Made by a program: the position numbers and the translations under genes. The notes beneath the pieces were generated by a model. The model worked only from the letters and a program-made list of their open reading frames with translations. It had not been told where the DNA came from and searched no databases. A DNA stretch of 64,000 bases, from positions 3,224,001 to 3,288,000 of the forward strand of contig NZ_CP011125.1 in NCBI RefSeq assembly GCF_000737325.1, given 5' to 3'. Below, in pieces: positions 6,699-37,448 of the stretch; positions within the stretch are counted from its first letter, which is position 1, and each line of letters opens with the position of its first letter. The stretch is from Sandaracinus amylolyticus. Its GTDB lineage: Bacteria > Myxococcota_A > Polyangia > Polyangiales > Sandaracinaceae.

Positions 6699-7094
6699 AT
6701 GATGATGCCCGCGATGCCGATGCCTCAGATGCCCGCGTCGATGCCGAACATGCCGATGTCGAACATGCCGATGATGGGCATGCCGGTGATGAACGGCATG
6801 ATGCCGATGATGAACGGCATGATGCCGATGATGAACGGCATGATGCCGATGATGGGCATGCCGATGACGAACGGCATGATGCCGATGATGCCCGGCATGA
6901 TGATGCCGATGATGCAGTGCCGGATGACCTGCGAGATGACCAAGGACGGCATGGTCTGTCGCATGATGCCGATGGACGCCGCGCAGATGGACGCGATGAA
7001 GGCGTGCTGCGAGATGATGAACGGCATGATGGCGATGGGGATGCCGTGCATGATGTCGTGCAACGGCATGCCCATGCTGATGTGCACGCGCTGA
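6699..7094 (+). CDS. Extremely methionine-rich, Cys-containing small protein
   Basis: A 131-residue protein of which I count 56 Met (43%) and 8 Cys. The first part is low complexity (MPM, MPN and NGMMPMM units); three exact 21-bp DNA units at 6792-6854 encode the NGMMPMM repeats. The last third has spaced Cys (CRMTC, VCR, ACCE, PCMMSC) and looks more structured. An AAGGAG ribosome site at 6685-6690 sits 8 nt before the ATG, so translation is well supported. Met-rich plus Cys motifs are typical of Cu(I)/Ag(I) binding, or of Met pools that absorb oxidants. There is no signal peptide, so it is probably cytosolic. A hairpin follows the stop. Confidence 0.8.
   Translation: MMMPAMPMPQMPASMPNMPMSNMPMMGMPVMNGMMPMMNGMMPMMNGMMPMMGMPMTNGMMPMMPGMMMPMMQCRMTCEMTKDGMVCRMMPMDAAQMDAMKACCEMMNGMMAMGMPCMMSCNGMPMLMCTR
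6792..6854 (+). repeat. Three tandem 21-bp units in the Met-rich gene
   Basis: The unit AACGGCATGATGCCGATGAT plus a final G occurs three times without change, encoding NGMMPMM. Degenerate copies follow to about 6905. This suggests recent expansion by slippage, and copy number may vary between strains. Confidence 0.85.
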
Positions 7095-7764: not shown

Positions 7765-7958
7765 CCGCGCGGCCACAGCCAGTAGCCCCACGCGGGCACG
7801 ATGGGCGCCATCGGAGCGACCGGCGCGAACGGCACCATCCACACGAATCGCGCCGCGGAGCGCGCGGACGCCTCGCTCGCGCTCGCGCTCTCGCGCTCCG
7901 AACGACGCTTCCGGAACTCGTCCAGGTCGACCACCTTCGCGCTCTGCTCCGCACGCAT
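7761..7958 (-). CDS. Small protein coupled to the XRE-cupin regulator
   Basis: A 65-residue protein of unknown function. The N-terminus VVDLDEFRKRRSERES is highly charged; the C-terminal part (FVWMVPFAPVAPMAPIVPAW) is hydrophobic and Pro-rich and could touch a membrane. A GAGGAGG ribosome site lies 5 nt before the ATG. Its stop overlaps the start of the XRE-cupin gene by 4 bp, so the two are made together. It may modulate the regulator or be an unrelated microprotein. Confidence 0.65.
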   Translation of the reverse strand: MRAEQSAKVVDLDEFRKRRSERESASASEASARSAARFVWMVPFAPVAPMAPIVPAWGYWLWPRG

Positions 7959-8014: not shown

Positions 8015-8434
8015 TCAGCGCATTTTCGCGGTGATCTCGCGCGCGCCGCGACGCGCGATGGTCGCGTCCGTGACCGGCCAAGGCGATCCGTGGTCGGCCA
8101 CGGCGCGGGTCACGGTCACGCGCGCGCTGCTCGCGACGTCCTCGAGCTCGCGCGCGATCTCGGCCCCCGCGGGGACGACGATGCGCTGGACGCGCGCGCG
8201 GCTCGCGAGCTCGAGCGCATCGCGCGTCGGCGCTTGCGCGAGGTACACCGTCGCGCCGCGCGCCGCGGCGCCGGCGTCGAGGATCGCGAGGTGGATCGCC
8301 GCCTGGCGTGCGCTCGACGTGACCGCCTCCGCGAGACGCTTCCCACGCTTCACCACGATCGCAGCGCGACCGTGCGACTGCGCCGCGAGCGCGGACGCGC
8401 GCGCCGACCAGAACGCGTCCTCGAGGGTGTTCAT
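8015..8434 (-). CDS. Degenerate cytidine/dCMP deaminase-fold protein
   Basis: A 139-residue protein. The order of segments (AAIVVKRGKRLAEAV, then AAIHLAILDAG, then GATVYLAQAPTRDALELA, then RVQRIVVPAG) follows the zinc deaminase fold. The usual H/C-A-E motif and the PCxxC zinc ligands are absent (HLA and APTRDA in their place). It is therefore probably inactive as a deaminase and may have a structural or binding role. Its ATG overlaps the stop of the dioxygenase gene upstream (ATGA, 8431-8434), so both come from one sigma-54 type transcript. A CCGTG-N6-CACGG palindrome occurs inside the gene at 8088-8103. Confidence 0.55.
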   Translation of the reverse strand: MNTLEDAFWSARASALAAQSHGRAAIVVKRGKRLAEAVTSSARQAAIHLAILDAGAAARGATVYLAQAPTRDALELASRARVQRIVVPAGAEIARELEDVASSARVTVTRAVADHGSPWPVTDATIARRGAREITAKMR

Positions 8435-9504
8435 CGCGCACCTCGATCGAAGTAGACGCCGCGCACCCAGCGCGCGCCGCGGAACCCGGTGCGCGCGTGC
8501 AGCATGCGATGGTTGTCGTAGAGAAGGACGTCGCCGGCGCGCAGCGTGGTCCGCACCGCGCTCTCCTCGACGAGCCGCACGAACCGCGCGTACGCGCGGT
8601 ACCACGCGTCCATCTCGGCGAAGGGCAGGCGATGCGGCGCCATCGTGAACGGCGACAGGCGCACCTGGAACCGATCGCTCCGCGCGTCGAGGATGGGGCC
8701 CGTGAAGAGGCGCTCGAACGCCTTCTGCTTCCGGTGGAAGCGCACGGGGGTCGTCGTGAGCACGCGGTAGGTCTCGACGTCGTGCTGCGCGAGCCAGCGC
8801 GCGGCGCGATGCGCGTCGGACACGAGGCTCTCGCCGCCTTCGTCGGCAGGACGGATCGCGTGCAGCAGCTGGTAGCGCGGCGGCGCGTCGAGGAACGGCT
8901 GATCGGTGTGCAGGTCGATCGGCGCGTCGGTGTAGCCGAGCTGATCGGTGTTCTGGTTCGTCGTGTTGTCGGTGCGCAGATCCTCGATGCGACCGAAGTG
9001 GGTCGTGATGACGGCGAGGCCCTCGGCCGCGATCTGATCGATCAGGCGCTCGGTGTGCTCGGGGCCGGTGATGCCGGTGGGGTGACGCGCGATCAGCGCG
9101 CCGTCGCGCGCGAGGCGCTCGGGCCAGTCGGGCGGCAGGAGCGCTTCGTCGGAGGCGAGCGTCGTCTCGAGCTCGGCGAGGGTGCGCGCGGGCTCGACGT
9201 CGTCGCGATCGGGCGCGTACGCGTGCTCGCGCAGCCAGCCGAGCGGATAGCGGCTCGCGGCGCGATCGGCGCGCTCGCCGGCCCAGCGGACGTGGAGCGC
9301 GTCGCCGTCGATCCACGCGTAGTGCGCGCGGAGATCGGGCGCGATGCGGGAGCTGCAGAGCGTGCGCTCGCCGGTGCTGGGATGACGATCGAGCGCGCAC
9401 TCGTGGCGCAGCCAGATCCAGTGGAAGTCGGCGTGACGGCCGTCGCCGAACACGATGCGCGCGAACCGATCGTGCGAGACGACACGCGGCTTCGAGAGGC
9501 TCAT
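8431..9504 (-). CDS. TauD/gamma-butyrobetaine hydroxylase-like Fe(II)/2-oxoglutarate dioxygenase
   Basis: A 357-residue protein. The first 100 residues look like the N-terminal domain of gamma-butyrobetaine hydroxylase (DUF971-like, WLRHEC and RHPSTGERTLC). The catalytic TauD domain follows, with the HxD iron motif at His199/Asp201 (DLHTDQPF), the distal His at 336 (NHRMLHART) and the 2-oxoglutarate-binding Arg region near 345-348. Such enzymes hydroxylate small substrates, including carnitine precursors or sulfonates; the substrate is unknown. A sigma-54 type promoter (9517-9532) and a palindromic site (9562-9577) lie upstream, placing it with the sulfate transport genes. No Shine-Dalgarno site is visible. 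Confidence 0.8.
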   Translation of the reverse strand: MSLSKPRVVSHDRFARIVFGDGRHADFHWIWLRHECALDRHPSTGERTLCSSRIAPDLRAHYAWIDGDALHVRWAGERADRAASRYPLGWLREHAYAPDRDDVEPARTLAELETTLASDEALLPPDWPERLARDGALIARHPTGITGPEHTERLIDQIAAEGLAVITTHFGRIEDLRTDNTTNQNTDQLGYTDAPIDLHTDQPFLDAPPRYQLLHAIRPADEGGESLVSDAHRAARWLAQHDVETYRVLTTTPVRFHRKQKAFERLFTGPILDARSDRFQVRLSPFTMAPHRLPFAEMDAWYRAYARFVRLVEESAVRTTLRAGDVLLYDNHRMLHARTGFRGARWVRGVYFDRGAR

Positions 9505-9516
9505 GCGCGTGGCTTT

Positions 9517-9532
9517 CGCAACGCTCGTGCCG
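9517..9532 (-). promoter_or_regulatory. Sigma-54 (-24/-12) promoter of the dioxygenase gene
   Basis: The minus strand reads CGGCACGAGCGTTGCG, which keeps GGCACGA and TTGC of the consensus with correct spacing. The predicted start point is near 9506, only about 2 nt before the ATG, so the mRNA would be leaderless or nearly so. Confidence 0.65.
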
Positions 9533-9591: not shown

Positions 9592-10632
9592 TCACGGCTC
9601 GACGCGGAGCCGCGCCTGGGACCACGCGGCGCCGCCGCGCGCGTCGCGCAGCACGACCACGAGCGCGAGCTCGCCGGGCGCGTGGGGCAGCGCGAGCACG
9701 TTCTCGCTGCTCGTCGTCGTGTCGTCGTCGGCGACGCCGGTGCGCTCGGACTCGAGGGTGCCGCCGCTCACGTACCACGCGACGCGGATCGACTCGCGCT
9801 CCGGGACGAGCGTGCGCGTCGCGAGGTCGAAGCGCAGGTATCGCTCGGCGCCGCCGCAGCTCCCGGTGATCGTGGTGCAGTCGTCGGCGCAGAGCGTGCG
9901 CGTCTCGTCGATGCCGCAGAGGCCGTCGCCGCACGCGTCCTCGAGCGGGCAGTCGGGCCAGCGCACGCGCACGGTGACGACCTCGCTCGCGCGCACCGCG
10001 ATCGGCGCGTCGCCGAGCGTCTCGGTGGTGCCGTCCGCGCGCGTGATCTCGAGCGCCTGGATCGCGGGCGCGACGTTGCGTCGATAGCGCTGCGTGTACT
10101 CGACCGATTGCTGCTGCGTCGCGCCGAAGAGGCCGCACGCGAGGCGCGTCTCGACGAGCGACGTCGAGCCCTCGGTGGCGTCGAAGACGCGCAGCGGCTG
10201 CGCGTATCCGCCGGTGACGTCGGGATCGACGGGGCGGCCGGCGGGCTCTCCGCCCTCGGAGGGCGGAGGCTCCGGGCCGAAGAGACCGCACGCGTCGCGC
10301 GGGATCGCGCCGCTCACGTCGAGGCCGGTGCCGATCGGGACGAGCACGTCGTTCTCGAGCTCGAGGCACGCCTGCGCGACCGGACCGAGCTCGGCGAGCG
10401 GCTTGCGTGCGACGCAGAACGCCCAGTCGAGCGGGGCCTCGTCGATCGCACCCGACGCGTCGGCGTAGAGCCCGACGAAGCGCACCGTGTCGCCGGGGGC
10501 GGCCTCCGCGGGCTCGGCGCGCACGGCGAGCAGGCGAGGCGCCGCGAGGATCGACTCGTCGACGTCCACGTCGGGCACACACGCGCTCGCGAGGATGCCA
10601 ATCAGGATGCCAGTCGTCTTCAGAACGTCCAT
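9592..10632 (-). CDS. Predicted outer-membrane lipoprotein, last gene of the TonB operon
   Basis: A 346-residue lipoprotein with lipobox LASAC (Cys18) after MDVLKTTGILIGI. The mature part has several Cys-containing segments (CPLEDACGDGLCGIDETRTLC is a disulfide-rich patch) and two Ig-like stretches that read like surface beta-sandwiches (TVRFVGLYADASGAIDEAP). No known family. Its start overlaps the end of the TonB-dependent receptor gene by 13 bp, so it is probably a partner of that receptor, such as a surface ligand-binding subunit. Confidence 0.65.
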   Translation of the reverse strand: MDVLKTTGILIGILASACVPDVDVDESILAAPRLLAVRAEPAEAAPGDTVRFVGLYADASGAIDEAPLDWAFCVARKPLAELGPVAQACLELENDVLVPIGTGLDVSGAIPRDACGLFGPEPPPSEGGEPAGRPVDPDVTGGYAQPLRVFDATEGSTSLVETRLACGLFGATQQQSVEYTQRYRRNVAPAIQALEITRADGTTETLGDAPIAVRASEVVTVRVRWPDCPLEDACGDGLCGIDETRTLCADDCTTITGSCGGAERYLRFDLATRTLVPERESIRVAWYVSGGTLESERTGVADDDTTTSSENVLALPHAPGELALVVVLRDARGGAAWSQARLRVEP

Positions 10633-13385
10633 CGCAGTCCCAACACCGGCAGGATCGGCAGTCCGCGGATCGTGTCGCGGCGGGTGTAGTCGGGGGAGAA
10701 CACGAATTCCTCGGCGTTCGCCTGGTTCGTGACGTTCTGCACCTCGAGCCAGAGCTCGAGGCGCGTGTCTCCGAGCTCGATGCGCTGGCCCACGCGCACA
10801 TCGAGCTGCACGAATTCCGGCAGTCGGACGCTGCTGCGCTCGCCGAAGAGCGGCTGCCAGCGATCGCGCCCCGCGTCGTAGAACGCGTCCACGACGGGCG
10901 TGCGCGGGAATCCCGTGGAGTATCGGAATCGCGCGCCGACCTCGAAACCGCCGCCCGGCGTCCAGGAGAGCAGGGCAGTCAGCACGTGAGTCTGATCGTA
11001 GTCGAACAGACGCCATGGCTGGCCCGCTGCGTCCTGCCGCTCCGAGCGCATCAGCGTGTACGCGACCCATCCCGAGAAGCCCTCGGTCTCCTCGAGTCGC
11101 ACGAGCGTCTGCACGCCGTACGCGCGGCCCCAGCCCTCGGCGACGAGCGCCTGCGCGCGCAGCGGCGACTCGTCCTGGCTGCGCACCGCGAGCCCTTCCG
11201 AGAACGACGCGAACCCGGTGACCTCGATGCCGAGCGTCGGAGTCGGGCGCACCGTCGTGCCCGCGAGCACGTGCCACGACTGCCCGACTGGCAACGTGGG
11301 ATTGCCGAACGTCGCGCTCAGATCCTCGGGGACCGCGGACTGATGATAGAGGCCGCCCGCGGCACGGAATCCGAGGAACGGGTAAGGGTCCCAGCGCAGC
11401 GCGAGGCGCGGCTCGGCGCGGAAGTCCTGCAGCGCGAGCCCGATGTCGGGAGCGTCGCCCTCGCGCGGCGAGCGACGGCTGACGGTGCGTGCGTAGGGAT
11501 CGATGCGCAGCCCGGGCACGACGTGCAGCGCGCCGTCGAAGAACGCGAGGTCGCCCTCGACGTACGGTGCCGCGCCGACCTGCACGACCTCCCACGCGTC
11601 CGACGCGATGCGATCGGGCGGAGGCTGGCCGAACACGCGCACGTCGCCTTCGCGCGCCGGCAGGCCGATCGAGCCCTGTCGCGAGAGCCCGACGACGTCG
11701 ACCTCGGCGTCGACACCGATCTCGACGTCGAGCCCGAAGCCCGGCTGATCGAATGCGCGCACGCGATGGCTCGCGCGCAGGCCGAGGAGCCACGTCTCGC
11801 TCGCGACCGACGTCGTCACGTCGCCGAAGCGGCTCGCGCGCAGGCTCCGATCCCAACCGACCCAGGGCACGATCGTGCTGCGGCTGCCGTCGCCGCCCTC
11901 GCGATCCCAGCGCGCGTAGAGGCGCTGGAAGTCGAGCTCGCGCGACTCCGACGTGACGAGCGCGGGATCGCTGCTCGGCACGCCGCGCGAGATGCGATCG
12001 CCGCCGAGCATGTGCACGAGCTCGATGGTCTCGCCGGGCCGCACCTGGTGCGCGGCGCGCAGCTGGGTGTCCCAGTAGCGCGGCACCGCGACGTAGTCGC
12101 CGAGATCGCCCTGCGTGGCCTCGACGAAGAGGTGCAGCCAGCTCACGCGTGCAGCGCCCGCGGCGCGCCAGCGATCACCGGCCGAGCCGCGCAGTGTCGT
12201 GGACACGTCGTAGAGATCGGCGGAGACGGTGCCGTGGAGACCGTCGCCCATCGGCGTGAGCGTGCGGACCGTGACGATGCCGCCGAGGCCGCGGCCGTAC
12301 GCGGCGCCGTACCCGCCGGGCACGAGATCGAGCGACTCGACGAGATCGGACGCGATCACCGAGCGCAGTCCGCCCTCGTGATAGAGGCGCGGGATGCGCA
12401 CTCCGTCGACGTAGACGCGGGTGTCCTCGGGCGACGCGCCCCACACGACGAGCTGGCCGGTGCCGACGGACGAGCGCGCGACGCCGGGCAGGCTCTCGAC
12501 GACGCGCAGCACGTCACCGCCGGTGCCGGGGACGCGGCGCGCCTCTTCGGCCTCGACGCGCGTGGAGACGACCTCGCGACGCAGCGCGGGCGCGACGACG
12601 ACGATCTCGAGATCGTCCGCGTCGGCTTCGCTCTGCTCGTCCTCGGGATCGCGGAGCGTGACGTCGTACGCGACCTCGAGGCGCTCGCCCGCGGCGATCG
12701 TCTCCTCGGTGCGCAGCGCGGTGAGGCGCTCGCCCGAGAGCGAGAGCACGACGACGCCGGGCGCGAGATCGGAGAGCGCGAATCGTCCTTCGGCGTCGGT
12801 GACCGACGAGGCGCCGTTCTCGATCGTGATGGTCACTCCGGCGATCGGCGCGCGACTGCGACGGTCGCGGACGATGCCAGTCAGCGTGCCAGTCGTGGGC
12901 GGCGGTGGCGTTTCTTCTTCGAGCGTGAACCGATATGCGTACGAGATGCGAATCGCGGCGGGCACGCCGTCGACCTCGGCGGGTGTGAATCGGAACTGAC
13001 GCGCTGCCGTGATCGCCGCGGCGTCGAACGCGTCGCCGGCGCTCTCGATCACCACGGCCTCGGTGACGGCGCCGGTCGCGTCGATCGTGATCTGCAGCAC
13101 GACCGTCGCCTCGATGCCGGTCTCGCGCGCCTCGGGCGGATACTCCGCCTCGACGAACTGCACGAGCTCGGGCGCGCGCGTCAGCTGCGGCCCGGCGGGT
13201 CGCTCCTGCGCGTGGGCGGTGAGCGGAGCGAGGGCGGCGGCGATCAGCGTCGCGACGAACAGCGCGATCACGACGCGTGGCGAATATCTCTGTCGTCGCA
13301 CGGCGAGGTGGACCAGGAGGAGAGTCAGAGGGACGAGCGGTGGAGCGGCCGTGATCAGCGCGCTGGTCGTGGATGCCGTGCTCAC
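10620..13385 (-). CDS. TonB-dependent receptor with fused N-terminal TonB C-terminal domain
   Basis: A 921-residue protein. From the GTG at 13385 (overlapping the tonB stop as GTGA) it has two hydrophobic stretches (about 12-29 and 37-58, the second ending AHA-QE like a signal peptide). A TonB C-terminal domain follows (about 73-153: YPPEARETGIEATVVLQI, AARQFRFTPAEVDG), then a carboxypeptidase-regulatory-like domain (about 165-245), a TonB-box-like EIVVVA (260-265), a plug (about 270-390) and a 22-strand type barrel ending in WTF. It should import a bulky or scarce ligand across the outer membrane, powered by ExbB-ExbD-TonB encoded just upstream. The fusion of a TonB domain to the receptor is unusual. 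Ligand unknown. Confidence 0.85.
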   Translation of the reverse strand: MSTASTTSALITAAPPLVPLTLLLVHLAVRRQRYSPRVVIALFVATLIAAALAPLTAHAQERPAGPQLTRAPELVQFVEAEYPPEARETGIEATVVLQITIDATGAVTEAVVIESAGDAFDAAAITAARQFRFTPAEVDGVPAAIRISYAYRFTLEEETPPPPTTGTLTGIVRDRRSRAPIAGVTITIENGASSVTDAEGRFALSDLAPGVVVLSLSGERLTALRTEETIAAGERLEVAYDVTLRDPEDEQSEADADDLEIVVVAPALRREVVSTRVEAEEARRVPGTGGDVLRVVESLPGVARSSVGTGQLVVWGASPEDTRVYVDGVRIPRLYHEGGLRSVIASDLVESLDLVPGGYGAAYGRGLGGIVTVRTLTPMGDGLHGTVSADLYDVSTTLRGSAGDRWRAAGAARVSWLHLFVEATQGDLGDYVAVPRYWDTQLRAAHQVRPGETIELVHMLGGDRISRGVPSSDPALVTSESRELDFQRLYARWDREGGDGSRSTIVPWVGWDRSLRASRFGDVTTSVASETWLLGLRASHRVRAFDQPGFGLDVEIGVDAEVDVVGLSRQGSIGLPAREGDVRVFGQPPPDRIASDAWEVVQVGAAPYVEGDLAFFDGALHVVPGLRIDPYARTVSRRSPREGDAPDIGLALQDFRAEPRLALRWDPYPFLGFRAAGGLYHQSAVPEDLSATFGNPTLPVGQSWHVLAGTTVRPTPTLGIEVTGFASFSEGLAVRSQDESPLRAQALVAEGWGRAYGVQTLVRLEETEGFSGWVAYTLMRSERQDAAGQPWRLFDYDQTHVLTALLSWTPGGGFEVGARFRYSTGFPRTPVVDAFYDAGRDRWQPLFGERSSVRLPEFVQLDVRVGQRIELGDTRLELWLEVQNVTNQANAEEFVFSPDYTRRDTIRGLPILPVLGLRWTF

Positions 13386-14134
13386 AACGTGAACCGCACC
13401 GAGATCGTGAACGTCGCGGTCGTCGCCTCGCCGCAGCGCATCGCGGGCTCGAAGCGCGCGTCGCGCACCGCTGCGGTCGCCGCCTCGTCGAGGCCGTGGC
13501 CGAGGCCCTCGACGACCTCGACGCTCGTGACCGCGCCGGTCGCGTCGACCTCGATGCGCACGCGCACGCGGCCTTCGATCTGCGCGCTGCGCGCCTCGTC
13601 GGTGTAGGCCGGCTGCGGCATCGAGACCGGGCGCGGCCTCGTCGCGTCCTCGGCGCACGCGTCCTCGCTCGCGGCGCGCGGCGCGCGCGCTTCCTGCGGC
13701 GCCTCGAGCGCGCGCGCGCTCGCGGTGCGGGTGACCGCCTCGCGGGGCGCGGTCGGGCTCGCGTGCACGTCGCCGACGGGCACCGCGACGCCACCGAGCC
13801 CCACGCCGCCCTGCATCGCGACGCCGAAGTCGAGCGGCGCGGCCGCGGGCATCGGCGGCGGAGGCGGTGCAGCCTCGGGCGGCGGCTCGGCGCGCGGGCG
13901 CGGCGGAGGCGCCGGCTCGGGCGCAGCCTCGGGCGGCGGCGGCGGGGGCGCCTCGGGCTCGGGCGGCGGAGGCGGCGGCTCGACGGGCTCGGGCGGCGGA
14001 GGAGGCGCCTCGCGCATCGTGATGCGCACGGTCTCCACGCGCGCCGGAGGCTCGATCGCGGAGACCGCGGCCGCGAGCACGCCGTGCGCGAGCAGGCTGC
14101 CGACGTAGAGCAGGACGATGCGATTCTTCGCCAC
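13382..14134 (-). CDS. tonB: TonB energy transducer (copy 1)
   Basis: A 250-residue protein with an N-terminal membrane anchor (IVLLYVGSLLAHGVLAAAV), a long Pro/Glu spacer (about 45-110) and a C-terminal TonB domain (about 170-250: YTDEARSAQIEGRVRVRIEV). The His in the anchor (SLLAHG) is the position used for coupling to ExbB/ExbD. It passes proton-motive energy from the inner membrane to the receptor encoded next. The start is GTG at 14134; its stop overlaps the receptor start by 4 bp. Confidence 0.85.
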   Translation of the reverse strand: MAKNRIVLLYVGSLLAHGVLAAAVSAIEPPARVETVRITMREAPPPPPEPVEPPPPPPEPEAPPPPPPEAAPEPAPPPRPRAEPPPEAAPPPPPMPAAAPLDFGVAMQGGVGLGGVAVPVGDVHASPTAPREAVTRTASARALEAPQEARAPRAASEDACAEDATRPRPVSMPQPAYTDEARSAQIEGRVRVRIEVDATGAVTSVEVVEGLGHGLDEAATAAVRDARFEPAMRCGEATTATFTISVRFTL

Positions 14135-14193
14135 GGTGGATGTGCGCCGCGTGGAGTGTGGGAGTCAGGTTGCCAGTCAGCGTGTCAGTCGAG

Positions 14194-14619
14194 TCACTCG
14201 CTCCGCTCGACCTGCACTGCGAAGCTGGTGATCCGCTCGGTCCGCGCGACGTCGAGGACGTGCACGACCGCGCCGTGCTGCGCCGCGCGATCCGCGCTCA
14301 CGATCAACGTCAGCTCGGGATCGCGACGACGCGCATCGCGAAGACCTGCGATCAGCGCGGCCTCGTCGACGGGCTCACCGTTGAATTGCAGCGCACCGTC
14401 CGCGGCGATGCTCACCGCCGCGAGCGACGCCGCGCTCCCGTCGGAGGTCGCGGTGTTCGGCAGATCGACGCGCATGCTCTGCGACACGATGTAGGTCGCC
14501 GAGACCATCATGATGACGAGCAGCACGAGCACGACGTCGACCATCGGCGTCACGTTGATGCCGACGATCATCCCGCCACCCCTGCGCCCACGACCTCCGC
14601 TCGACGTCGTCGCGGCCAT
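14194..14619 (-). CDS. exbD: ExbD/TolR family protein (copy 1)
   Basis: A 141-residue protein. After a Gly/Arg-rich N-terminus it has NVTPMVDVVLVLLVIMMV, the single membrane helix with the conserved Asp that carries protons in ExbD/TolR. The periplasmic part (VSIAADGALQFNGEPVDEAAL) is typical. It forms the motor with ExbB, encoded 3 bp upstream, and drives TonB. Part of the seven-gene operon. Confidence 0.88.
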   Translation of the reverse strand: MAATTSSGGRGRRGGGMIVGINVTPMVDVVLVLLVIMMVSATYIVSQSMRVDLPNTATSDGSAASLAAVSIAADGALQFNGEPVDEAALIAGLRDARRRDPELTLIVSADRAAQHGAVVHVLDVARTERITSFAVQVERSE

Positions 14620-14622
14620 GGC

Positions 14623-15327
14623 TCACTCGGCCTCCGCGAGCGCGAGCTCGCCACGAACGTCCTCGCGCACGCGCGCCGGCGCGCGACGCGCGTGTGGCTC
14701 GCCGCCCGCGCGCAGCCACGCGCTCACCAGCTTCGCGAGCGCCTGCACGTCGTTCTCGACGTCGGCGATCTTCTTCTGCGCGACGTTGTAGGCGACGACC
14801 GCGGGGATCGCGACGAAGATGCCGACGCCCGTCGCGACGAGCGCCTCCGCGATGCCGCTCATGACGTTGCCCATCGCGGCTTCGCCGGAGCCGTCCGAGA
14901 GGTGATGGAACGCCTCGATGACGCCGAGCACCGTGCCGAAGAGACCGATGAACGGCGCGTTGTTCCCGAGCGTGCCGAGCAGCGTCATGCTGCGCTCGAG
15001 CTGCGCGCGTGCGCGGCCGATCTCGCTCTCGACCGCGTCGGAGAACGCCTCGGGCCCACCGCGACGCCACTCGAGCGCTGCGCGTAGCACGTCGGCCTCG
15101 ACCGACGGATTCGAGATCAGCGCCTTCGAGAGCGCGTCTTCGTCGTCCTCGTGCAGCGCCTTCGAGAGCGAGCGACGGAGCGCTTCGCCGCCTGCGCGGT
15201 TGCGCCGGAAGAACACCCAGCGCTCCGCCATCGCGGCGAACGACACGACGGAGAGCGCGAGCAGCAGCCAGAGCACCCAGCTCGAGCCGAGCAGCGCGAC
15301 GCGGAGGAGGGATTCGACGATGTCCAT
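14623..15327 (-). CDS. exbB: ExbB/MotA-TolQ family proton channel (copy 1)
   Basis: A 234-residue protein with three membrane helices (about 12-32, 125-145, 160-185). The conserved ExbB segment is clear: LGTLGNNAPFIGLFGTVLGV followed by IAEALVATGVGIFVAIPAV. It forms the inner-membrane proton channel of the TonB system. It sits between the upstream lipoprotein gene (28 bp) and exbD. Confidence 0.9.
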   Translation of the reverse strand: MDIVESLLRVALLGSSWVLWLLLALSVVSFAAMAERWVFFRRNRAGGEALRRSLSKALHEDDEDALSKALISNPSVEADVLRAALEWRRGGPEAFSDAVESEIGRARAQLERSMTLLGTLGNNAPFIGLFGTVLGVIEAFHHLSDGSGEAAMGNVMSGIAEALVATGVGIFVAIPAVVAYNVAQKKIADVENDVQALAKLVSAWLRAGGEPHARRAPARVREDVRGELALAEAE

Positions 15328-15354
15328 GGGGTACGTCTCTCGATTTCTGCGGAA

Positions 15355-16326
15355 TCAAGGAATCTCGACGGCCGTGACGTAGAGCGGACTGCCCGCTCCG
15401 CCGTTCGCCGCCATCGACATCAGCGCGCCAGTCGTCTGGCTCGTCCGGACGAGTCGGAACTCGCCTTCTCCGGTCTGCTCGCGCGCGTAGGTCGTCACCG
15501 CGAATCGCACGCTCGCGTGCGCGCACGCGTCGAACAGGTTCACGTACACGAGGTACGTGCCGCCGCCGGGCGGCGGCTCCTGGAACGTGAGGCTCTCGCT
15601 GTTGCGACCATCGGGCTCGCACGCCGCGAGCGAGTCGCCGTCGAGCCGCCCGACGGTCGGATCGCGCAGCGCCTCGGGCGGGATGCGCCCCGCGTCGTCG
15701 GGCAGCGCGGTGGTGGGGTGACGCGCGTCGACGGTCTTTCCGTCGGGCGTGACGATGGCGAGATCGAGATCGACGTCCTCGTCCCACGTCACCGCGATGA
15801 CCGCGGCGGGCGGCGGAAGCGTCGGATCACACGCGTTGAAGTTGTCGGCGACGCGCGGGTCGGTGACGCAGACGTCGAGCTCGCTCCACGCGCCGCCGCG
15901 ACCCTCTTCGTCGATCGCGACGACGCGCAGCGTGTGGAGACCGGGCGGCAGACCACCGCTCACGTCGAGCTCCACCGCCCACACGCGCTCGCCGGGGAAC
16001 GCGGGGTCGAGCGCGCCCACCGGCAGGCTCCAGTACCCGCTTCCGAGCCCGTCGATCTCGACGCCGATTGCCCACGTCTCCTCGGTGGCGCGGCCTTGCA
16101 GCGTGCGGTCGAGCTGACCCTGTGCCCAGATGCCGCCGGTCGTCTCGATCGCGGTGACCCGCGGGCCCTCTTCGAGCTCGGCGGCGCCGGGCAGCTCCTC
16201 GCCGCGGCGCAGCGCTGCGCCGTGCACGACGATCGGCTCTTCGACACCGACCGGGCTCACCTCGCCGGTGCACGCGGCGAGCGCGAGAATGCCAATCAGC
16301 GTGGCAGTCCGCACTGCCGCGCTCAT
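15355..16326 (-). CDS. Predicted lipoprotein of the TonB operon
   Basis: A 323-residue lipoprotein (MSAAVRTATLIGILALAAC, Cys19). The mature part contains a segment like the pre-peptidase/DUF2135 type beta-sandwich (VTWDEDVDLDLAIVTPDGKTV, later GGGTYLVYVNLF), often found in exported proteins of myxobacteria. No enzymatic motif. Its ATG overlaps the porin stop (ATGA), so it is translationally coupled. Likely a surface or periplasmic partner of the porin or the receptor. Confidence 0.65.
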   Translation of the reverse strand: MSAAVRTATLIGILALAACTGEVSPVGVEEPIVVHGAALRRGEELPGAAELEEGPRVTAIETTGGIWAQGQLDRTLQGRATEETWAIGVEIDGLGSGYWSLPVGALDPAFPGERVWAVELDVSGGLPPGLHTLRVVAIDEEGRGGAWSELDVCVTDPRVADNFNACDPTLPPPAAVIAVTWDEDVDLDLAIVTPDGKTVDARHPTTALPDDAGRIPPEALRDPTVGRLDGDSLAACEPDGRNSESLTFQEPPPGGGTYLVYVNLFDACAHASVRFAVTTYAREQTGEGEFRLVRTSQTTGALMSMAANGGAGSPLYVTAVEIP

Positions 16327-17873
16327 CGGAATTCTCCCTGCACGCGCACCGTGAATTGGTCGTTTCGCAGATCCGCGGGGACGCCGCGCGCGTCGCGTCC
16401 GAGCGCGTCGAGGATCGCGTCGTACTGGAACACCAGACGGCCTGCGAACCCCGGCGCGACCTCGGGCGGGAGGCGCACTCCGACGAGCGGAGAGAACGTG
16501 TGGATCGAGGCGTCCGCGGGGACCGACAGACCACGCCGCTGATCGACCAGATCCGAATTCGGATCGTAGTAGTCGTATCGGAGCCCGAGCAGGCCCCAGT
16601 CGAAGATCTCTTGGGTGAGCGCGGCGTACGCGGAGAGGTGCCGCACGTCGAACCCGGTCTCGATCGGGTCCGCGACGAACATCGAGCGATCGAGGTTGCT
16701 CGCGAGCGTCGCCTCGACGAAGAGCCGCGTCCAACCGATCGGGGTCCGCACGCCGGCGTGCGCGTCGAGGTTCACGCCCCAGCGCTCGAACGTGAGCGAC
16801 GGAGTCGCGGCGCGGCCCGGGATCGCGACGATCTCGCCGGTGTCGAGGGTCCCGCTCTCGTTCAGATCACGCCACTCGAGGCGACCCTTCACCGCGTCCT
16901 GTCCGGGGTGGAAGCCGGTGCCCCAGAGGAACGAGACACCGCCCGCGAGCTCGAAGTCGCGCTCGTTCACGGTCTCGACTCCGACGCGACCGACGACGTC
17001 GGGCACCGAGGTGGGATCCACCGCGAAACCCTGTCCAGCGCGGTCGTCGAGCGGCGTGCCGCCCATCACCGCGACGTCGTAACGGAGCACGCCGACGCCG
17101 CCCTGCGCGCGCACCCCGAGATCGAGCGGACCGCGGAAGAACGCGAGCGAGCCGAGCGAGCGCTCCATGAAGAGCCAGTCGCGCTGGCTCTGCCGCACCT
17201 CGTGACCGAACGGGATCTCGGTCAGACCGGCGGAGAGCTCGACGAAGGGTGGCAGTCCGGAATCCGGACTGCGGAGCAGCGCCGACACCGTCGTGCGTCG
17301 CAGTCCGAAGAAGGGCCCGCGCGTCGTGCTCCCATCGAGCTCGATCTCGAACGCGACGTGCTCCCACTCTCCTGCGAGCCGGATTCGCCCGCGGCGAATG
17401 GAGAATCGATTGCGATTGAGCACCACGCCGCCCTGGAGCAGCTGGTCCTCGCTGAGATCGCTCCACTCGTACTGGGCCTGGACGTAGCCGCTGAGCGAGA
17501 AGCCCCAGCGCTGCAATTGCGCGGGCACGCCGAGGCTCGGGCTGTCGGGCGCGACGGGCTCCGCCGGCGCAACGACCGCTTCGGGGGGCGCGGCCGCTTC
17601 GCGCGTACGTTCGGCGTCGATCGTGTCGAGTCGCTCGCGCAGCGCCGCGAGCTCGGCGCGCAGTTGCTCGACCTCGCTCGGCTCGGCAGGAGGCGGCGTC
17701 TCGGCAGCAGCAGCGGGAGGCGGGGACGACGCGGGGACGACGATCTCCTGATCGTCCTCTTCGATCTCGATGGTCGCGGACTGCGCGTGCGCTGGTCTCG
17801 CGGGTGCCCCCACGAGCGCAGCGAGCGCCAGAGTCTGCGCGAGCGAGCGACGGAATCGCGGAACGATGGACAA
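16323..17873 (-). CDS. OprO/P-type porin heading the TonB operon
   Basis: A 516-residue protein. The signal peptide ends at ARPAHA-QS. A Pro-rich linker with a coiled-coil stretch (EVEQLRAELAALRERLDTID, about 68-87) precedes a barrel starting WGFSLSGYVQAQYEW, as in phosphate-selective porins of the OprO/P family. The coiled coil may trimerise or anchor to peptidoglycan. I start at TTG 17873, which has GGAG five bases before it and gives a full signal peptide; the longer frame runs into the promoter. First gene of the operon, with a sigma-54 type promoter at 17937-17952. Confidence 0.8.
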   Translation of the reverse strand: MSIVPRFRRSLAQTLALAALVGAPARPAHAQSATIEIEEDDQEIVVPASSPPPAAAAETPPPAEPSEVEQLRAELAALRERLDTIDAERTREAAAPPEAVVAPAEPVAPDSPSLGVPAQLQRWGFSLSGYVQAQYEWSDLSEDQLLQGGVVLNRNRFSIRRGRIRLAGEWEHVAFEIELDGSTTRGPFFGLRRTTVSALLRSPDSGLPPFVELSAGLTEIPFGHEVRQSQRDWLFMERSLGSLAFFRGPLDLGVRAQGGVGVLRYDVAVMGGTPLDDRAGQGFAVDPTSVPDVVGRVGVETVNERDFELAGGVSFLWGTGFHPGQDAVKGRLEWRDLNESGTLDTGEIVAIPGRAATPSLTFERWGVNLDAHAGVRTPIGWTRLFVEATLASNLDRSMFVADPIETGFDVRHLSAYAALTQEIFDWGLLGLRYDYYDPNSDLVDQRRGLSVPADASIHTFSPLVGVRLPPEVAPGFAGRLVFQYDAILDALGRDARGVPADLRNDQFTVRVQGEFR

Positions 17874-17936: not shown

Positions 17937-17952
17937 AGCACGCTCGATGCCA
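17937..17952 (-). promoter_or_regulatory. Sigma-54 (-24/-12) promoter of the porin-ExbBD-TonB-receptor operon
   Basis: The minus strand reads TGGCATCGAGCGTGCT: GG and GC are 10 bases apart and TGGCA is exact. The predicted start is near 17926, leaving a leader of about 53 nt before the TTG start. Confidence 0.7.
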
Positions 17953-18038: not shown

Positions 18039-18099
18039 CCGTGGGATCCGACAGGCCGTGCTCCGCGCTGGGAGCGCATCACGGAGCCGTGAAACGCGA

Positions 18100-18134
18100 G
18101 AGGCCCCGAGCATCACAAGGACGCTCGGGGCCTC
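18100..18134 (-). terminator. Hairpin terminator of the PstS-like/lipoprotein transcript
   Basis: A perfect 12-bp stem (GAGGCCCCGAGC and its complement) with an 11-nt loop begins 18 nt after the lipoprotein stop at 18153 and is followed on the minus strand by CTCGCGTTTC. It separates this transcript from the regulatory region of the TonB operon. Confidence 0.75.
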
Positions 18135-18152: not shown

Positions 18153-18506
18153 TCAATCGAGCGGCGGGACCGTTCCGTCGGCGCGCAGACGCGGAAGGCG
18201 CGCCTGGGTGACCGGGAACTCGATGCACGTCGAGTCGGTGCATCCATTGAGGAAGTGCTCGGGCTCGGTCGGGAGACACGACCAGCAGTCGGGCCGACTG
18301 GTGCACTCGCCGCCGTCGGGGAGCTCGCGATCGGGCAGCTGCGCGTCGACCTGCGCGTCGGTGGGCTCGGGATCGGGCCCGCCGTCGAGATCGCCGGAGT
18401 CGACCTGGGCATCGCGTCGACCACCGGCGTCGGGCGGCGCGGGATTCTCGCGCTCGCATCCCAGCGCGAGCAGCGCGAGGAGGGTGACGATCGTCGTCGT
18501 ACGCAT
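18153..18506 (-). CDS. Small Asp-rich lipoprotein
   Basis: A 117-residue lipoprotein (MRTTTIVTLLALLALGC, Cys17) with a Pro/Asp-rich spacer and six further Cys in a short C-terminal domain (CTSRPDCWSC, NGCTDSTC), a pattern of small disulfide-stabilised surface proteins. Function unknown. Its ATG overlaps the stop of the PstS-like gene (TGATG), so it is co-translated and may anchor or assist that protein. Confidence 0.65.
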   Translation of the reverse strand: MRTTTIVTLLALLALGCERENPAPPDAGGRRDAQVDSGDLDGGPDPEPTDAQVDAQLPDRELPDGGECTSRPDCWSCLPTEPEHFLNGCTDSTCIEFPVTQARLPRLRADGTVPPLD

Positions 18507-19765
18507 CACCGCACCTCGCAATAGCCGAAGCGGCACACCGAGCCGGGCGCGGTGCAGTCACTGGCCTCGTCGCACGCGGTGCACGACGCGGGCGCCGTGC
18601 CGGTCGCGACCTCTTCGTAATAGCAGCCACACGGCGCGGTCGGCAGATAGCTGTAGAGAGGGCCCATGTCGGTGTCGCGCCACACCTGCATCGCACACTC
18701 GGGGATGTTCCCGTTCTGCGCGGTGATCTCGAGCAGCGGGAGCTCGTCGGGCGTGTCGACCGCGCCGGTGAAATAGCCCACCAGCGTGCGAGTGCGCGGA
18801 TTCGTGATCTGCCCTGCTGCGTCGACCGGCGCGTAGAAGTGATAGGACGACCACAGGAAATAGTGTCCGTCGCGCACGTTGCGCTTGTCGAAGCGCGTCG
18901 ACGTCGAGTCCGGCAGATAGCCGCACGACTGGTCGTAGTGCTGATAGGCGAGCGTGCGCACCTGATCGCGCGCGTTGTCGGCGACCTCGGTGCTGACGAA
19001 GCCGAGCGTCGCAGCGGCCGACACCTGACCGCTCTCGTAGACGCGCTGGATCATCGCCTGGTTCGTGCGCACGTCCCACGAGGCGCGGTCGCCCGAGAAC
19101 CACGAGCCCACTCGCTCGGGCGGCACGCCGATCGCGAGCGCGATCGCGATGAGCGCCGCCGACGTCGGGTTGCGGCCCCAGAAATGCGCGGGGTCCGTCC
19201 ACGGCGAGACCTGCGCCTCGGCGGGCCCGAAGCCGTAGAGCAGATACGCGGCCTCGGCCGCGATCACCGTCTGCGGCGACGTCTGCGGGACGATCAGGCT
19301 CCACGACGTGATCGGGCCCGCGAAATCACCGATGCCCGCGGGGATCTCGGTGACGCCTTCGCAGAGCGTGCCCGCGGTGCCCATCATGCCGAAGTCGGGC
19401 ACCACGCCGGTCAGCGGGAGGTTGCACGTGCGCTGCACCGGAGGCGTGCCCGCGGGGCTGCCGGCGGGCGGCGGATCCCAGTAGCTCGCGGTGCCGGTGA
19501 TCGTCGTGCCGTCGACGTACGGCGTGATTCCGAAGCACGCGCCGGGCGACTGATAGACGACCGTCACCGCGGGATTCGAGACGCTGCGGAGCGCCGCGCC
19601 GACCCTCGCGAGCAGCGGCACCGAAGCGCTGCCGCCCGCGCCGATCACGGCGTTGGGCAGGTCTCGACAGTTCTCCTGTGCGTCGGCGCGCGACACCGCG
19701 AGCAGTGGCGCGGCGAGCGCGAGCAGCGCGGGAATCAGCAAGCGAATCGGGACTCGGCTCTTCAT
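18506..19765 (-). CDS. PstS-like periplasmic anion-binding protein
   Basis: A 419-residue exported protein (signal ending SRADA-QE). The sequence VIGAGGSASVPLLARVGAAL near the N-terminus, then a type-II binding-protein layout (GIGDFAGPITSWSLIVPQ, YLLYGFG), resembles PstS phosphate-binding proteins. The C-terminal tail is unusual: a Cys-rich module (CGCYYEEV, CTACDEASDC, CRFGYC) not found in PstS. It probably captures an oxyanion; the sulfate ABC genes in the same apparent regulon make a sulfur oxyanion or ester possible. The ATG at 19765 has GAGGAG upstream. A sigma-54 type promoter and two palindromes precede it. Confidence 0.7.
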   Translation of the reverse strand: MKSRVPIRLLIPALLALAAPLLAVSRADAQENCRDLPNAVIGAGGSASVPLLARVGAALRSVSNPAVTVVYQSPGACFGITPYVDGTTITGTASYWDPPPAGSPAGTPPVQRTCNLPLTGVVPDFGMMGTAGTLCEGVTEIPAGIGDFAGPITSWSLIVPQTSPQTVIAAEAAYLLYGFGPAEAQVSPWTDPAHFWGRNPTSAALIAIALAIGVPPERVGSWFSGDRASWDVRTNQAMIQRVYESGQVSAAATLGFVSTEVADNARDQVRTLAYQHYDQSCGYLPDSTSTRFDKRNVRDGHYFLWSSYHFYAPVDAAGQITNPRTRTLVGYFTGAVDTPDELPLLEITAQNGNIPECAMQVWRDTDMGPLYSYLPTAPCGCYYEEVATGTAPASCTACDEASDCTAPGSVCRFGYCEVR

Positions 19766-19795: not shown

Positions 19796-19811
19796 AGCAC
19801 GCAGAGTGCCA
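19796..19811 (-). promoter_or_regulatory. Sigma-54 (-24/-12) promoter of the PstS-like gene
   Basis: The minus strand reads TGGCACTCTGCGTGCT: an exact TGGCAC -24 element and GTGC at -12 with correct spacing. The predicted start is near 19786, about 20 nt before the ATG, leaving room for the GAGGAG ribosome site. Confidence 0.75.
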
Positions 19812-23026: not shown

Positions 23027-24613
23027 TCAGTCGGCGTCGGCGCCGCGGAACCGGCTCCAGTCGAGCCGCAGCTTCCTCATGCGCGCGCGCAGCGTGTGCG
23101 GGTTGATGCCGAGCAGCGCGGCCGCGCCCTTCGGGCCCTCGATGCGACCGCGCGTCGACGCGAGCACACGCTCGATGTGCGCGACGACCACGTCGTCGAG
23201 CTTCTGCGACCTCGCGTCGATCGCGGGCAGCGTCGTTCCGTGCCCGTTCGTCTCCGCGCGCGGCGTGCTCGCGGGGAGGCGCGACGGCGTCGGCAGCGGC
23301 CCGCCGAGGCCGAGCGCCGCCGCGACCTCGAGCTTCCTGCCGTGCCCGAGGATCGCCGCGCGCTCGATGACCGCCGCGAGCTCGCGCACGTTGCCCGGCC
23401 ACGAGTACGCGAGCAGCAGGTGCAGATCCTCGCGCGTCGGCGTGAGCGGTCCTGCGCCGAGCCGCGCGCCCGCGCGCGCCGCGAAGTGCGACGCGAGCTC
23501 GGGGAGATCTTCGAGCCGCTCGCGCACCGGTGGCAGGCGCAGCGGGAACACCGAGAGTCGATACCAGAGGTCCTCGCGGAACTGACCCGCTTGCACCATC
23601 TGATGCAGATCGCGATGCGTCGCCGCGACGATGCGAACGTCGACGTGAAGCGTGCGCTGACCGCCGACGCGCTCGAGCGTGCCCTCCTGCAGGATCCTCA
23701 AGAGGCGCACCTGCGCCGCCGCGGGCAGCTCGCCGACCTCGTCGAGCAGGAGCGTCCCGCCGTCGGCGCGCTCGAACCAGCCCTTGCGCGTGCCCACCGC
23801 GCCGGTGAACGAGCCGCGCTCGTGCCCGAAGAGCTCGCTGTCGATCAGCTCGCTCGGGATCGCGCCGCAGTTCACGCGCACCATCGGCCCTTCGCGCCGC
23901 CGCGATCGCTCGTGGAGCGCGCGCGCGATCACTTCTTTGCCCGAGCCGGTCTCGCCGAGCAGCAGCACCGGCACGTCGGCGTTCGCGACCTGCTCGACGC
24001 GCTCCATCAGCGTGCGCAAGCCGCCGCGCTCGCCGATGATCGACTCGACGATGCTCTGGCGATTGAGCCGCGTGAGCAGCGCGCGGTTCTCGGCGAGCGC
24101 CGCCTCGCGGAGCTGCGCGAGCTCGTGCACGCGGCGATCGTTCGCGAGCGCCACGACGAGCGGCTCGACGATCGTGCTCACGAGCTTCGCGTGGTCCGCG
24201 CTCACCTTCGCGCCATCGCGCGCGATCAGCGCGAGCACGCCGGCGGGGCCGTCGTCGTCGGCGAGCGGCGCGACGATCACGTCGCTCGCGACGCGCGCTC
24301 GATCCTCGCCCGGCGTCGCGCCGAAGAGGGGATCGTCACCGTCGAGCTGCGTCGCATGCGCGGTGCGTCGCTCGAACAGCGCGAGCACGCGCGCCATCTG
24401 CGGCGACGGCAACTCGAACGGCGCCTGCGTCACGTCGACCGTGCGGCCGACCTGCGCGACCGTCTCGAGGCGCGCGCGCGGCACGTCGAGCCTGCGCAGG
24501 GTGATCGCGTCGATCGGGAGGTGCCTCGCGAGCACCGGCAACATGCGCGAGAGCGAGTCGTGGATGTCGAGGTGACGACACGCCTCGCGCCAGATCTCGA
24601 GCTCGAGCATCAT
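23027..24613 (-). CDS. Sigma-54 enhancer-binding transcriptional activator (GAF-AAA-Fis)
   Basis: A 528-residue activator. Residues about 20-155 look like a GAF sensor domain. The AAA+ domain has Walker A GETGSGKE (220-227), the sigma-54 contact loop as GSFTGA (267-272, the Ala-to-Ser variant of GAFTGA), Walker B TLLLDE (287-292) and YRLSVFPLRLPPVRER (351-366). The C-terminus (about 489-516) is a Fis-type helix-turn-helix, which would bind palindromes such as CCGTG-N6-CACGG. Without a receiver domain it is not a standard two-component regulator; the GAF domain may sense a sulfur-related metabolite (inference). I start at the ATG at 24613. It is divergent from sbp and appears to have its own sigma-54 promoter. 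Confidence 0.9.
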   Translation of the reverse strand: MMLELEIWREACRHLDIHDSLSRMLPVLARHLPIDAITLRRLDVPRARLETVAQVGRTVDVTQAPFELPSPQMARVLALFERRTAHATQLDGDDPLFGATPGEDRARVASDVIVAPLADDDGPAGVLALIARDGAKVSADHAKLVSTIVEPLVVALANDRRVHELAQLREAALAENRALLTRLNRQSIVESIIGERGGLRTLMERVEQVANADVPVLLLGETGSGKEVIARALHERSRRREGPMVRVNCGAIPSELIDSELFGHERGSFTGAVGTRKGWFERADGGTLLLDEVGELPAAAQVRLLRILQEGTLERVGGQRTLHVDVRIVAATHRDLHQMVQAGQFREDLWYRLSVFPLRLPPVRERLEDLPELASHFAARAGARLGAGPLTPTREDLHLLLAYSWPGNVRELAAVIERAAILGHGRKLEVAAALGLGGPLPTPSRLPASTPRAETNGHGTTLPAIDARSQKLDDVVVAHIERVLASTRGRIEGPKGAAALLGINPHTLRARMRKLRLDWSRFRGADAD

Positions 24614-24631
24614 CGTGGGCTTGGCGCGCTC

Positions 24632-24647
24632 AGCACGAGGCGTGCCC
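24632..24647 (-). promoter_or_regulatory. Candidate sigma-54 promoter of the activator gene
   Basis: The minus strand reads GGGCACGCCTCGTGCT, matching GGCACG and GTGC at the right spacing. It lies 19-34 bp before the ATG at 24613; the predicted start is near 24622. With palindromes 60-130 bp upstream this suggests autoregulation. Confidence 0.55.
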
Positions 24648-24709
24648 GTGTCGAGACCCTTGGTGCCTCTACGGTCGTGGACTTCGGCCCGTGACCGGCG
24701 CGGGGGAAT

Positions 24710-24777
24710 CCGTGACATCTCACGGATTCTCCCGTGCTCTGGCACGGAAGGCCAGGATCTCCCGTGATGGGTCACGG
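24710..24777. promoter_or_regulatory. Three CCGTG-N6-CACGG palindromes between activator and sulfate operon
   Basis: Perfect copies at 24710-24725, 24732-24747 and 24762-24777. The first two are 22 bp apart centre to centre. They lie 42-110 bp upstream of the sbp promoter and 60-130 bp upstream of the activator's own promoter, so they could serve both directions. Confidence 0.75.
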
Positions 24778-24818
24778 GCGCGGCCGAGCAGCCCGTGAAA
24801 ACCGCGGGGCTCTCGCGC

Positions 24819-24834
24819 TGGCATACCTCTGGCG
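24819..24834 (+). promoter_or_regulatory. Sigma-54 (-24/-12) promoter of the sulfate ABC operon
   Basis: TGGCATACCTCTGGCG keeps TGGCA at -24 and GGC at -12 with 10 bases between GG and GC. The predicted start is near 24844, about 5 nt before the sbp ATG. A possible ribosome site (AAGGG) at 24835-24839 would then lie upstream of the transcript, a conflict noted in the findings. Confidence 0.6.
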
Positions 24835-24848
24835 AAGGGCGCCGCGCG

Positions 24849-25904
24849 ATGCGAGCCCGCGCTCTTCCACTGCTCCTCTCCTCCGCGCTGCTGATCACGC
24901 TCTCCGCTTGTTCCGGCGGCGGCGCGAGCGACGGGCAGGGGACTCTCACGCTGCTCCACGTCTCGAACGATCCGACGCGCGAGCTCTACGCCGAGATAAA
25001 CCCGACCTTCGCGAGCGCGTGGGCGCGCGATCACGGCGGACAGCGCGTCGAGATCCGCATGTCGCACGGAGGCTCGGGCCGTCAGGCGCGCGCGGTGATC
25101 GACGGGCTCGACGCGGACGTGGTGAGCCTCGCGCTGCCCTTCGACGTCGACGCGATCGCGCGCGAGGGACAGCACCTGCTCGACCCGCAGTGGGCCGCGC
25201 GCCTCCCCGATCACAGCTCGCCCTTCTACTCGACGATCGTGTTCGTCGTACGGCGGGGCAACCCGCGCGGGATCCGCGACTGGAACGATCTCGTGCGCGG
25301 CGAGACGCAGGTGATCGCGCCGAGCCCGAAGACGTCGGGCGGCGCGCGCTACGTCTACCTCGGCGCGTACGGATACGCGCTGCGCCACGGATACGACGGA
25401 CGCACCGGCGACGAGGCGGGCACCGAGATGGTGCGCGCGCTCTATCAGCGCGTGCCGGTGCTCGACTCGGGCGCGCGCGGCAGCTCGACGACGTTCGCGC
25501 GCAACGGCATCGGCGACGTCTTGCTCACGTGGGAGAACGAAGCGCACCTCTTGCTCGCGGAGAGCCCCGACGCGGGGCTCGAGATCGTGATCCCGAGCGA
25601 GAGCATCCTCGCCGAGCCGCCGGCCGCGTGGATCGATCGCAACGTCGAGCGCCACCACACGCGCGAGGTCGCGGAGGCGTACCTCCGGCACCTCTGGTCG
25701 ACCGAGGCGCAGGAGATCGCGGCGCGCCAGCACTACCGACCGCGCGACGCCGACGTCGCGGCGCGGTACGCGCAGTCGTTCCCCACGATGACGCTCTTCA
25801 CCGTCGAAGAGGTGTTCGGCGGATGGGAGCGCGCGCACGCGACGCACTTCGCGGAGGGCGCGCTCTTCGATCGAATCTACCAGCCGGGGCAGGGCGGAAC
25901 GTGA
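24849..25904 (+). CDS. sbp: Sulfate-binding lipoprotein of the sulfate ABC transporter
   Basis: A 351-residue protein, MRARALPLLLSSALLITLSAC, so a lipoprotein (Cys21) rather than the soluble form of enteric bacteria. It carries the Sbp/CysP signatures LLHVSNDPTRELYAEINPTF, SHGGSGRQARAV and PSPKTSGGARY, which form the sulfate pocket. It delivers sulfate or thiosulfate to CysT-CysW. The start is the ATG at 24849. Its stop overlaps the cysT start (GTGA). Divergent from the sigma-54 activator gene. Confidence 0.9.
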   Translation: MRARALPLLLSSALLITLSACSGGGASDGQGTLTLLHVSNDPTRELYAEINPTFASAWARDHGGQRVEIRMSHGGSGRQARAVIDGLDADVVSLALPFDVDAIAREGQHLLDPQWAARLPDHSSPFYSTIVFVVRRGNPRGIRDWNDLVRGETQVIAPSPKTSGGARYVYLGAYGYALRHGYDGRTGDEAGTEMVRALYQRVPVLDSGARGSSTTFARNGIGDVLLTWENEAHLLLAESPDAGLEIVIPSESILAEPPAAWIDRNVERHHTREVAEAYLRHLWSTEAQEIAARQHYRPRDADVAARYAQSFPTMTLFTVEEVFGGWERAHATHFAEGALFDRIYQPGQGGT

Positions 25905-36995: not shown

Positions 36996-36999
36996 CGCG

Positions 37000-37437: not shown

Positions 37438-37448
37438 GTCGAGACCGC

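Follow-up and report, generated by a model that had tools for sequence, protein, structure and literature searches.

TonB systems are by default taken to import iron or vitamins, and the locus studied here raises the question of what an operon with its own TonB motor imports in Sandaracinus amylolyticus. We analyzed a window of 64,000 nucleotides (positions 3224001-3288000 of the 10,327,335-base single-contig genome), in which a first-pass annotation had described an operon of seven minus-strand genes for a porin, ExbB, ExbD, TonB, a receptor and two lipoproteins. ORF calls and family searches confirmed that all seven frames are open, lie on the minus strand and follow each other in the order given. 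While these seven genes are real, the conserved block is longer and reaches upstream to 19765, including a PstS-like gene and a gene for a small lipoprotein. These two genes precede the porin gene in most relatives, and the PstS-like gene is linked to the block in nearly all of them. The block contains the following features:

18506..19765, minus strand: exported binding protein of the PstS fold, with which the conserved block begins (model, linkage, motif table)
18153..18536, minus strand: small lipoprotein overlapping the end of the PstS-like gene (orthologues in the same place)
18098..18134, minus strand, boundaries approximate: 15-bp perfect hairpin without U-tract between small lipoprotein and porin (fold z = -5.0)
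16323..17873, minus strand: OprO/OprP-like porin (PF07396, Porin_O_P, 23.3 bits, cut-off 20.9)
15355..16326, minus strand: lipoprotein 1 (invariant C19, 12 orthologues)
14623..15327, minus strand: ExbB (PF01618, MotA_ExbB, 4e-33)
14194..14619, minus strand: ExbD (PF02472, 1.6e-25)
13382..14134, minus strand: TonB (PF03544, TonB_C, 8.6e-21)
10620..13385, minus strand: TonB-dependent receptor (TonB_C, CarboxypepD_reg and Plug domains; alternative start 13301)
9592..10632, minus strand: lipoprotein 2 (invariant C17, 15 orthologues)

Gaps of 27 bp, 3 bp and 59 bp separate lipoprotein 1 from exbB, exbB from exbD and exbD from tonB, respectively. Four overlapping genes had been counted before, but the coordinates allow three overlaps at most, namely 4 bp between porin and lipoprotein 1, 4 bp between tonB and the receptor gene, and 13 bp between the receptor gene and lipoprotein 2. 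With the GTG at 13301 as the receptor start, which yields a normal signal peptide, the second of these is replaced by a gap of 80 bp. Lipoproteins 1 and 2 found no match in the family search; each carries an invariant cysteine after the signal sequence in the 12 and 15 orthologues aligned. The hairpin in front of the porin gene is probably a terminator or processing site, and because the PstS-like gene and the porin gene are each preceded by a sigma-54 promoter match (see below), the block is likely to be read as two transcripts in this genome. Scans for sigma-70 promoters and T-run terminators gave nothing above shuffled sequences.

ExbB, ExbD and TonB each score above the Pfam cut-off, so a motor set is present, and the conservation of the whole gene set across the Myxococcota bears out the description of the operon as a dedicated import module with its own motor, the import function being assigned by homology. 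The motor is not universal, as distant relatives such as L128, L137 and L138 are devoid of ExbB-ExbD-TonB. A third group of blocks without these genes (L128, L129, L137, L138, L158 and L160) shows KSTL or KGT in the pocket of the binding protein. A second ExbB/ExbD set of the TolQ/TolR-like type, followed by a TonB_C protein, was noticed 20 kb off in the window (36336-38285, plus strand), so that the region contains a further motor besides that of the operon. The receptor has an unusual layout with TonB_C and CarboxypepD_reg domains preceding the TonB box (EIVVVAP) and the plug (PF07715, 9.4e-8), and a D-x-E-x-V-V-V-A-P stretch before the plug is conserved in the receptor alignment. Its model aligns with TonB receptors over positions 239-893. 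A likeness to siderophore receptors, which had been named beforehand as an argument against a sulfur ligand, does exist, but Z values of 30-37 were obtained with receptors for siderophores, cobalamin, heme and PQQ alike, and the comparison cannot discriminate between them. We therefore dropped the receptor fold as a guide to the ligand, since all TonB receptors tie. The porin profile found no match among solved structures.

The block recurs across the Myxococcota as two kinds, a phosphate kind and a sulfur kind, and the window contains the latter. Members of the PstS-like profile occur in 74 of the 183 genomes of the order, not all of which contain the whole block, and a search of the whole phylum, which also covers other classes, gave members of the lipoprotein-2 profile in 44 of 377 genomes. 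The block itself is present in, among others, Nannocystis exedens and Minicystis rosea. A FastTree phylogeny built from the porin, the lipoproteins and the receptor, with the PstS-like protein left out, places the sulfur-neighbour loci in several well-supported lineages and the phosphate kind in one main clade plus L142/L143 and L157, with weak deep nodes. The loci L142 and L143 carry a phosphate-like motif (DSGT) but are grouped in the tree with the sulfur-linked L148, a pattern that may reflect a switch of aim.

The proposal of a sulfur ligand had been derived from the neighbours in this one genome, which include the following genes:

24795..25904, plus strand: sulfate-binding protein Sbp, of which the genome showed no second copy (TIGR00971, 400 bits)
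25904-26788, plus strand, start not fixed: CysT (TIGR02139, 330 bits)
26769-27605, plus strand: CysW (TIGR02140, 365 bits)
27602-28642, plus strand: CysA (TIGR00968, 372 bits)
8431..9504, minus strand: GBBH/TauD-family dioxygenase with the TauD/TfdA fold (PF02668, 1e-33)

Comparison with the relatives strengthened this proposal, since sulfate-ABC genes adjoin the block in nine genomes and four arrangements, genes for a family 2A encapsulin and a cysteine desulfurase adjoin it elsewhere, and a conserved sigma-54 activator links the block and sulfur genes. The nine genomes with adjoining Sbp-CysTWA are those of the window, its congener, G004, G005, G114, G150, G143, G202 and G247. The transporter genes lie divergently upstream of the block in G150 and G143, on the same strand downstream in G114 and G202, on the same strand upstream with the activator in between in G247, and 6 to 18 kb upstream in Sandaracinaceae. 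According to whole-genome counts, a genome usually contains a single Sbp gene. With the congener excluded and the loci collected by following the block rather than Sbp, Sbp lies beside the block in 8 of the 16 sulfur-kind genomes having Sbp, compared to 0 of 8 of the phosphate kind (Fisher 0.022, a guide only, because relatives are not independent of one another); the chance rate was assumed to be about 0.5% per locus. About half of the sulfur-kind loci, Nannocystis among them, have no sulfur neighbour in the stretch read. The genes for the family 2A encapsulin (SrpI) and the cysteine desulfurase, a pair that Synechococcus induces when starved of sulfate (PMC8049743), adjoin sulfur-kind blocks in G004, G005, G037 and G052, whereas this encapsulin was not found in the genome of the window. 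The phosphate kind shows pst/pho genes beside 3 of 16 loci (G022, G028 and G152), with a single run of phoB-phoR-pstB-phoU-pstS-pstC-pstA, the block, DUF47 and PiT in G028; Pst adjacency alone is not significant (3/7 vs. 0/6).

The dioxygenase next to the operon, which had been taken as a pointer to sulfur, is by itself no sign of it: its best NCBIfam matches are the carnitine/phosphonate enzymes TmpA and gamma-butyrobetaine dioxygenase, and it falls below the cut-off of every named family. Genes of this GBBH/TauD type are linked to sulfur-kind blocks only. The block contains no enzyme of proven sulfatase or desulfonating activity. Two further genes were noticed on the same side of the operon. 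An XRE-cupin regulator is encoded at 7153-7842 (minus strand), and because its relatives are found near sulfur-kind blocks in G037, G052, G150 and L090, the one in G052 being fused to a rhodanese-like domain, it may represent a sulfur regulator. The other is a methionine-rich ORF with NGMMPMM repeats at 6522-7094 (plus strand), possibly coding for a metal-binding protein.

The control of the block was analyzed by consensus scans, using weights that are our own approximation of the published -24/-12 frequencies. The relevant features are:

23027..24949, minus strand: sigma-54 activator (enhancer-binding protein; PF00158, 3e-69)
19796..19811, minus strand: sigma-54 promoter match TGGCACTCTGCGTGCT upstream of the PstS-like gene
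17937..17952, minus strand: sigma-54 promoter match TGGCATCGAGCGTGCT upstream of the porin gene
9517-9532: sigma-54-like site by the dioxygenase gene

The sigma-54 promoter reported earlier in front of the porin gene was thus recovered and is unchanged in the congener, which also contains the site that precedes the PstS-like gene. The two strands of the 64 kb together contain no more than 12 sites with a score of 9.5 or higher on the 11.7 scale. The PstS-like gene is preceded within 300 bases by a match scoring 9.9 or more on this scale at 13 of 26 sulfur-kind loci vs. 0 of 15 phosphate-kind loci, with random stretches giving 1.9%. Every locus with an orthologue of the activator nearby (at least 55% identity) has a sigma-54 site, and these orthologues adjoin PstS-like genes and/or sulfate-ABC genes. 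The activator is probably the regulator of the block, and both elements of a candidate sigma-54-controlled sulfur regulon, a -24/-12 promoter and a linked activator, are present. The promoters of Sbp are mostly without sigma-54 sites, and we rejected sigma-54 control of Sbp, since of the nominal 2 of 9 cases L150 is an artefact of contig truncation and only L148 is credible. Upstream of the phosphate-kind blocks, Pho boxes of the E. coli type showed no enrichment worth claiming. Proteins of the DUF1592 (PSD/PSCyt) and DUF1552 (HXXSHH) types are encoded between the activator and the PstS-like gene (19928-22962, minus strand), a pair that accompanies the block in this genus only.

The AF2 model of the PstS-like protein reached a pLDDT of 92, and the solved structures closest to it are PstS without exception (Z 25 over 258 residues), followed by molybdate-binding (ModA, Z 15) and sulfate-binding proteins (Z 14). 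Compared to PstS of the PstSCAB system, it shares the fold and retains the arginine and serine of the R-x-x-x-S-G-T loop, but the contacts S38, D56, G140 and T141 are replaced by A76, G129, A203 and A204; it also differs by a Cys-rich C-terminal tail and by an operon without its own ABC partner. The assignment of E. coli residue numbers is based in part on the motif and on a HMMER alignment to solved PstS sequences. The phosphate contacts missing in the window protein, notably Asp56 and the S-G-T loop, are kept in the phosphate-kind orthologues, which retain the serine of the G-S-C turn, S-D and R-x-x-x-S-G-T. At the same positions, sulfur-kind proteins including that of the window show alanine, glycine and R-x-x-x-S-A-A or similar, which makes the side chains of the pocket smaller and removes hydrogen-bond donors. 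Because the two kinds had first been spotted by eye, the alignment columns were then picked by gene neighbourhood alone to avoid circularity, using ten sulfur-context and three phosphate-context loci. The phosphate context conserves 135 columns, and in 20 of them the two contexts have no residue in common; these 20 comprise 4 of the 7 PstS contact positions vs. 16 of the 128 others (p = 0.009, to be read with the same caution as above). With such an altered pocket, the protein could even bind no oxyanion whatever.

We consider it probable that the block is an outer-membrane module for sulfur acquisition. Under sulfur limitation, the activator would turn on the promoters of the PstS-like and porin genes, as suggested by the sites and the gene linkage. 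The ligand of the lipoproteins and the TonB-dependent receptor would be a sulfur oxyanion compound, for which a sulfate ester or sulfonate is the likeliest candidate and free sulfate a less likely one, and ExbB-ExbD-TonB from the same operon would open the receptor plug by means of the proton-motive force, as in homologous systems. The PstS-fold protein is predicted to take over the ligand from the receptor and to capture it in the periplasm, from where the sulfur would enter the cell via the neighbouring Sbp-CysTWA transporter or be released by the linked TauD-type dioxygenase, while the porin may pass small products or counter-anions. An organic sulfur oxyanion is favoured for three reasons, none of them strong: free sulfate crosses general porins, so that a TonB system for it would be odd, the pocket has smaller residues and fewer donors, and a TauD-type oxygenase is linked. 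The sister blocks with a PstS phosphate pocket beside pst/pho genes would do the same job for phosphate. We give about even weight to the wider proposal that this is one myxobacterial TonB module with two aims, phosphate and sulfur, the aim being set by a few pocket residues of the PstS-fold protein while control shifts from a phosphate neighbourhood to the sigma-54 activator.

The strongest competitor assumes that phosphate or an organic phosphate is the substrate of the block in every genome, including that of the window, and that the sulfur genes are mere neighbours. It would account for the PstS fold (Z 25), the OprO/OprP-like porin and the three sister blocks adjoining pst/pho genes, but we regard it as unlikely, because S38, D56, G140 and T141 are lost in the kind represented by the window, the pst genes of this genome are located elsewhere (9.65 Mb, with the block at 3.24 Mb), and sulfate genes recur beside the sulfur kind only. 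Another oxyanion such as molybdate, tungstate, arsenate or selenate, or a larger non-sulfur ligand, might be imported under co-regulation with sulfur metabolism, which would agree with the match of ModA structures to the binding protein (Z 15) and with the smaller side chains lining the sulfur-kind pocket. Since sulfate-ABC and desulfurase genes recur beside the block and molybdenum or arsenic genes were not found to do so, this appears improbable.

The uptake of siderophores or other metal chelates is the usual task of TonB systems, and the barrel of the receptor has the same fold as those of siderophore receptors (Z ~36). Its N-terminal TonB_C domain before the plug likewise resembles MxcH, the TonB-dependent myxochelin receptor (NF038079). 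However, the MxcH model scores 104 bits, far under its cut-off of 925, cobalamin receptors give a match of similar quality (Z 33.9), and MxcH comes from a siderophore locus, whereas the receptor of the window comes from a sulfur or phosphate setting. In agreement with the first-pass annotation, no siderophore gene was seen nearby, the recurrent neighbours being sulfur or phosphate genes, and we hold siderophore uptake to be no more probable than that of another oxyanion. A literature search on MxcH gave nothing usable. The least probable reading, to which we give very little credit, has the receptor working outward and the block exporting a protein or lipoprotein. A myxobacterial precedent is given by Oar of Myxococcus xanthus, a TonB-dependent transporter reportedly required for secretion of the protein PopC (PMC6434023), and the block does contain lipoproteins and a Cys-rich exported protein. 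Against export stand the nutrient-uptake genes around the block, the fold of the binding protein, which is that of a transport receptor, and the lack of a conserved protease or other cargo among the genes.

The reading as a sulfur-acquisition module has partial parallels in known systems. The sulfate-ester uptake locus of Pseudomonas putida contains the sulfur-regulated TonB receptor SftP beside an ABC transporter (atsRBC) under control of another type than that of the block, and is not known to include a dedicated motor, porin or PstS-fold protein. TonB uptake whose induction depends on nutrients besides iron is already known, as in the case of the Pus system of Flavobacterium, where the TonB-dependent transporters and lipoproteins of PusCD are induced by a lack of phosphate, not iron (PMC8115612). 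Both PusCD and the block thus comprise TonB transporters and lipoproteins for a mineral nutrient other than iron, but PusCD are SusCD-type pairs from another phylum, serve for phosphorus instead of sulfur and are not described (PMC8115612) with their own ExbB-ExbD-TonB, porin or PstS-fold protein. The block differs from known TonB nutrient uptake by its constant gene set with own motor, porin and PstS-fold protein and by its paired phosphate and sulfur settings. A literature search, which covered few subscription papers, found no description of it. If the sulfur reading is true, no self-contained TonB system for a sulfur oxyanion compound would have been described before, and the range of TonB ligands would be widened by a conserved motor-bearing module that is linked to sulfate transport and sulfur nanocompartments and, in its sister copies, to phosphate transport. 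The two kinds would also form a natural pair for studying how a PstS-fold protein is re-aimed from phosphate, and transcript and growth tests are practicable because holders such as Sandaracinus and Nannocystis are culturable.

We also observed a direct repeat of 12-base period, GACTGGCANNCTGAYTGGCA, in four copies within the operon:

10596-10615, 12875-12894, 14171-14190 and 16290-16309, all minus strand: copies of GACTGGCANNCTGAYTGGCA

Three copies are in frame (TGxLxGI), and the fourth lies in non-coding sequence before tonB. The congener contains all four in perfect form, other families contain none of them, and the repeat occurs at six places only in the whole genome, allowing at most one mismatch. 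The repeat GACTGGCA was discarded as a mark of a regulon, since its remaining genomic sites are scattered without a common theme. Finally, a phosphate-kind and a sulfur-kind block occur together in one genome, that of Minicystis rosea (G141, loci L083 and L096), which provides a natural pair for comparing both kinds within one cell.
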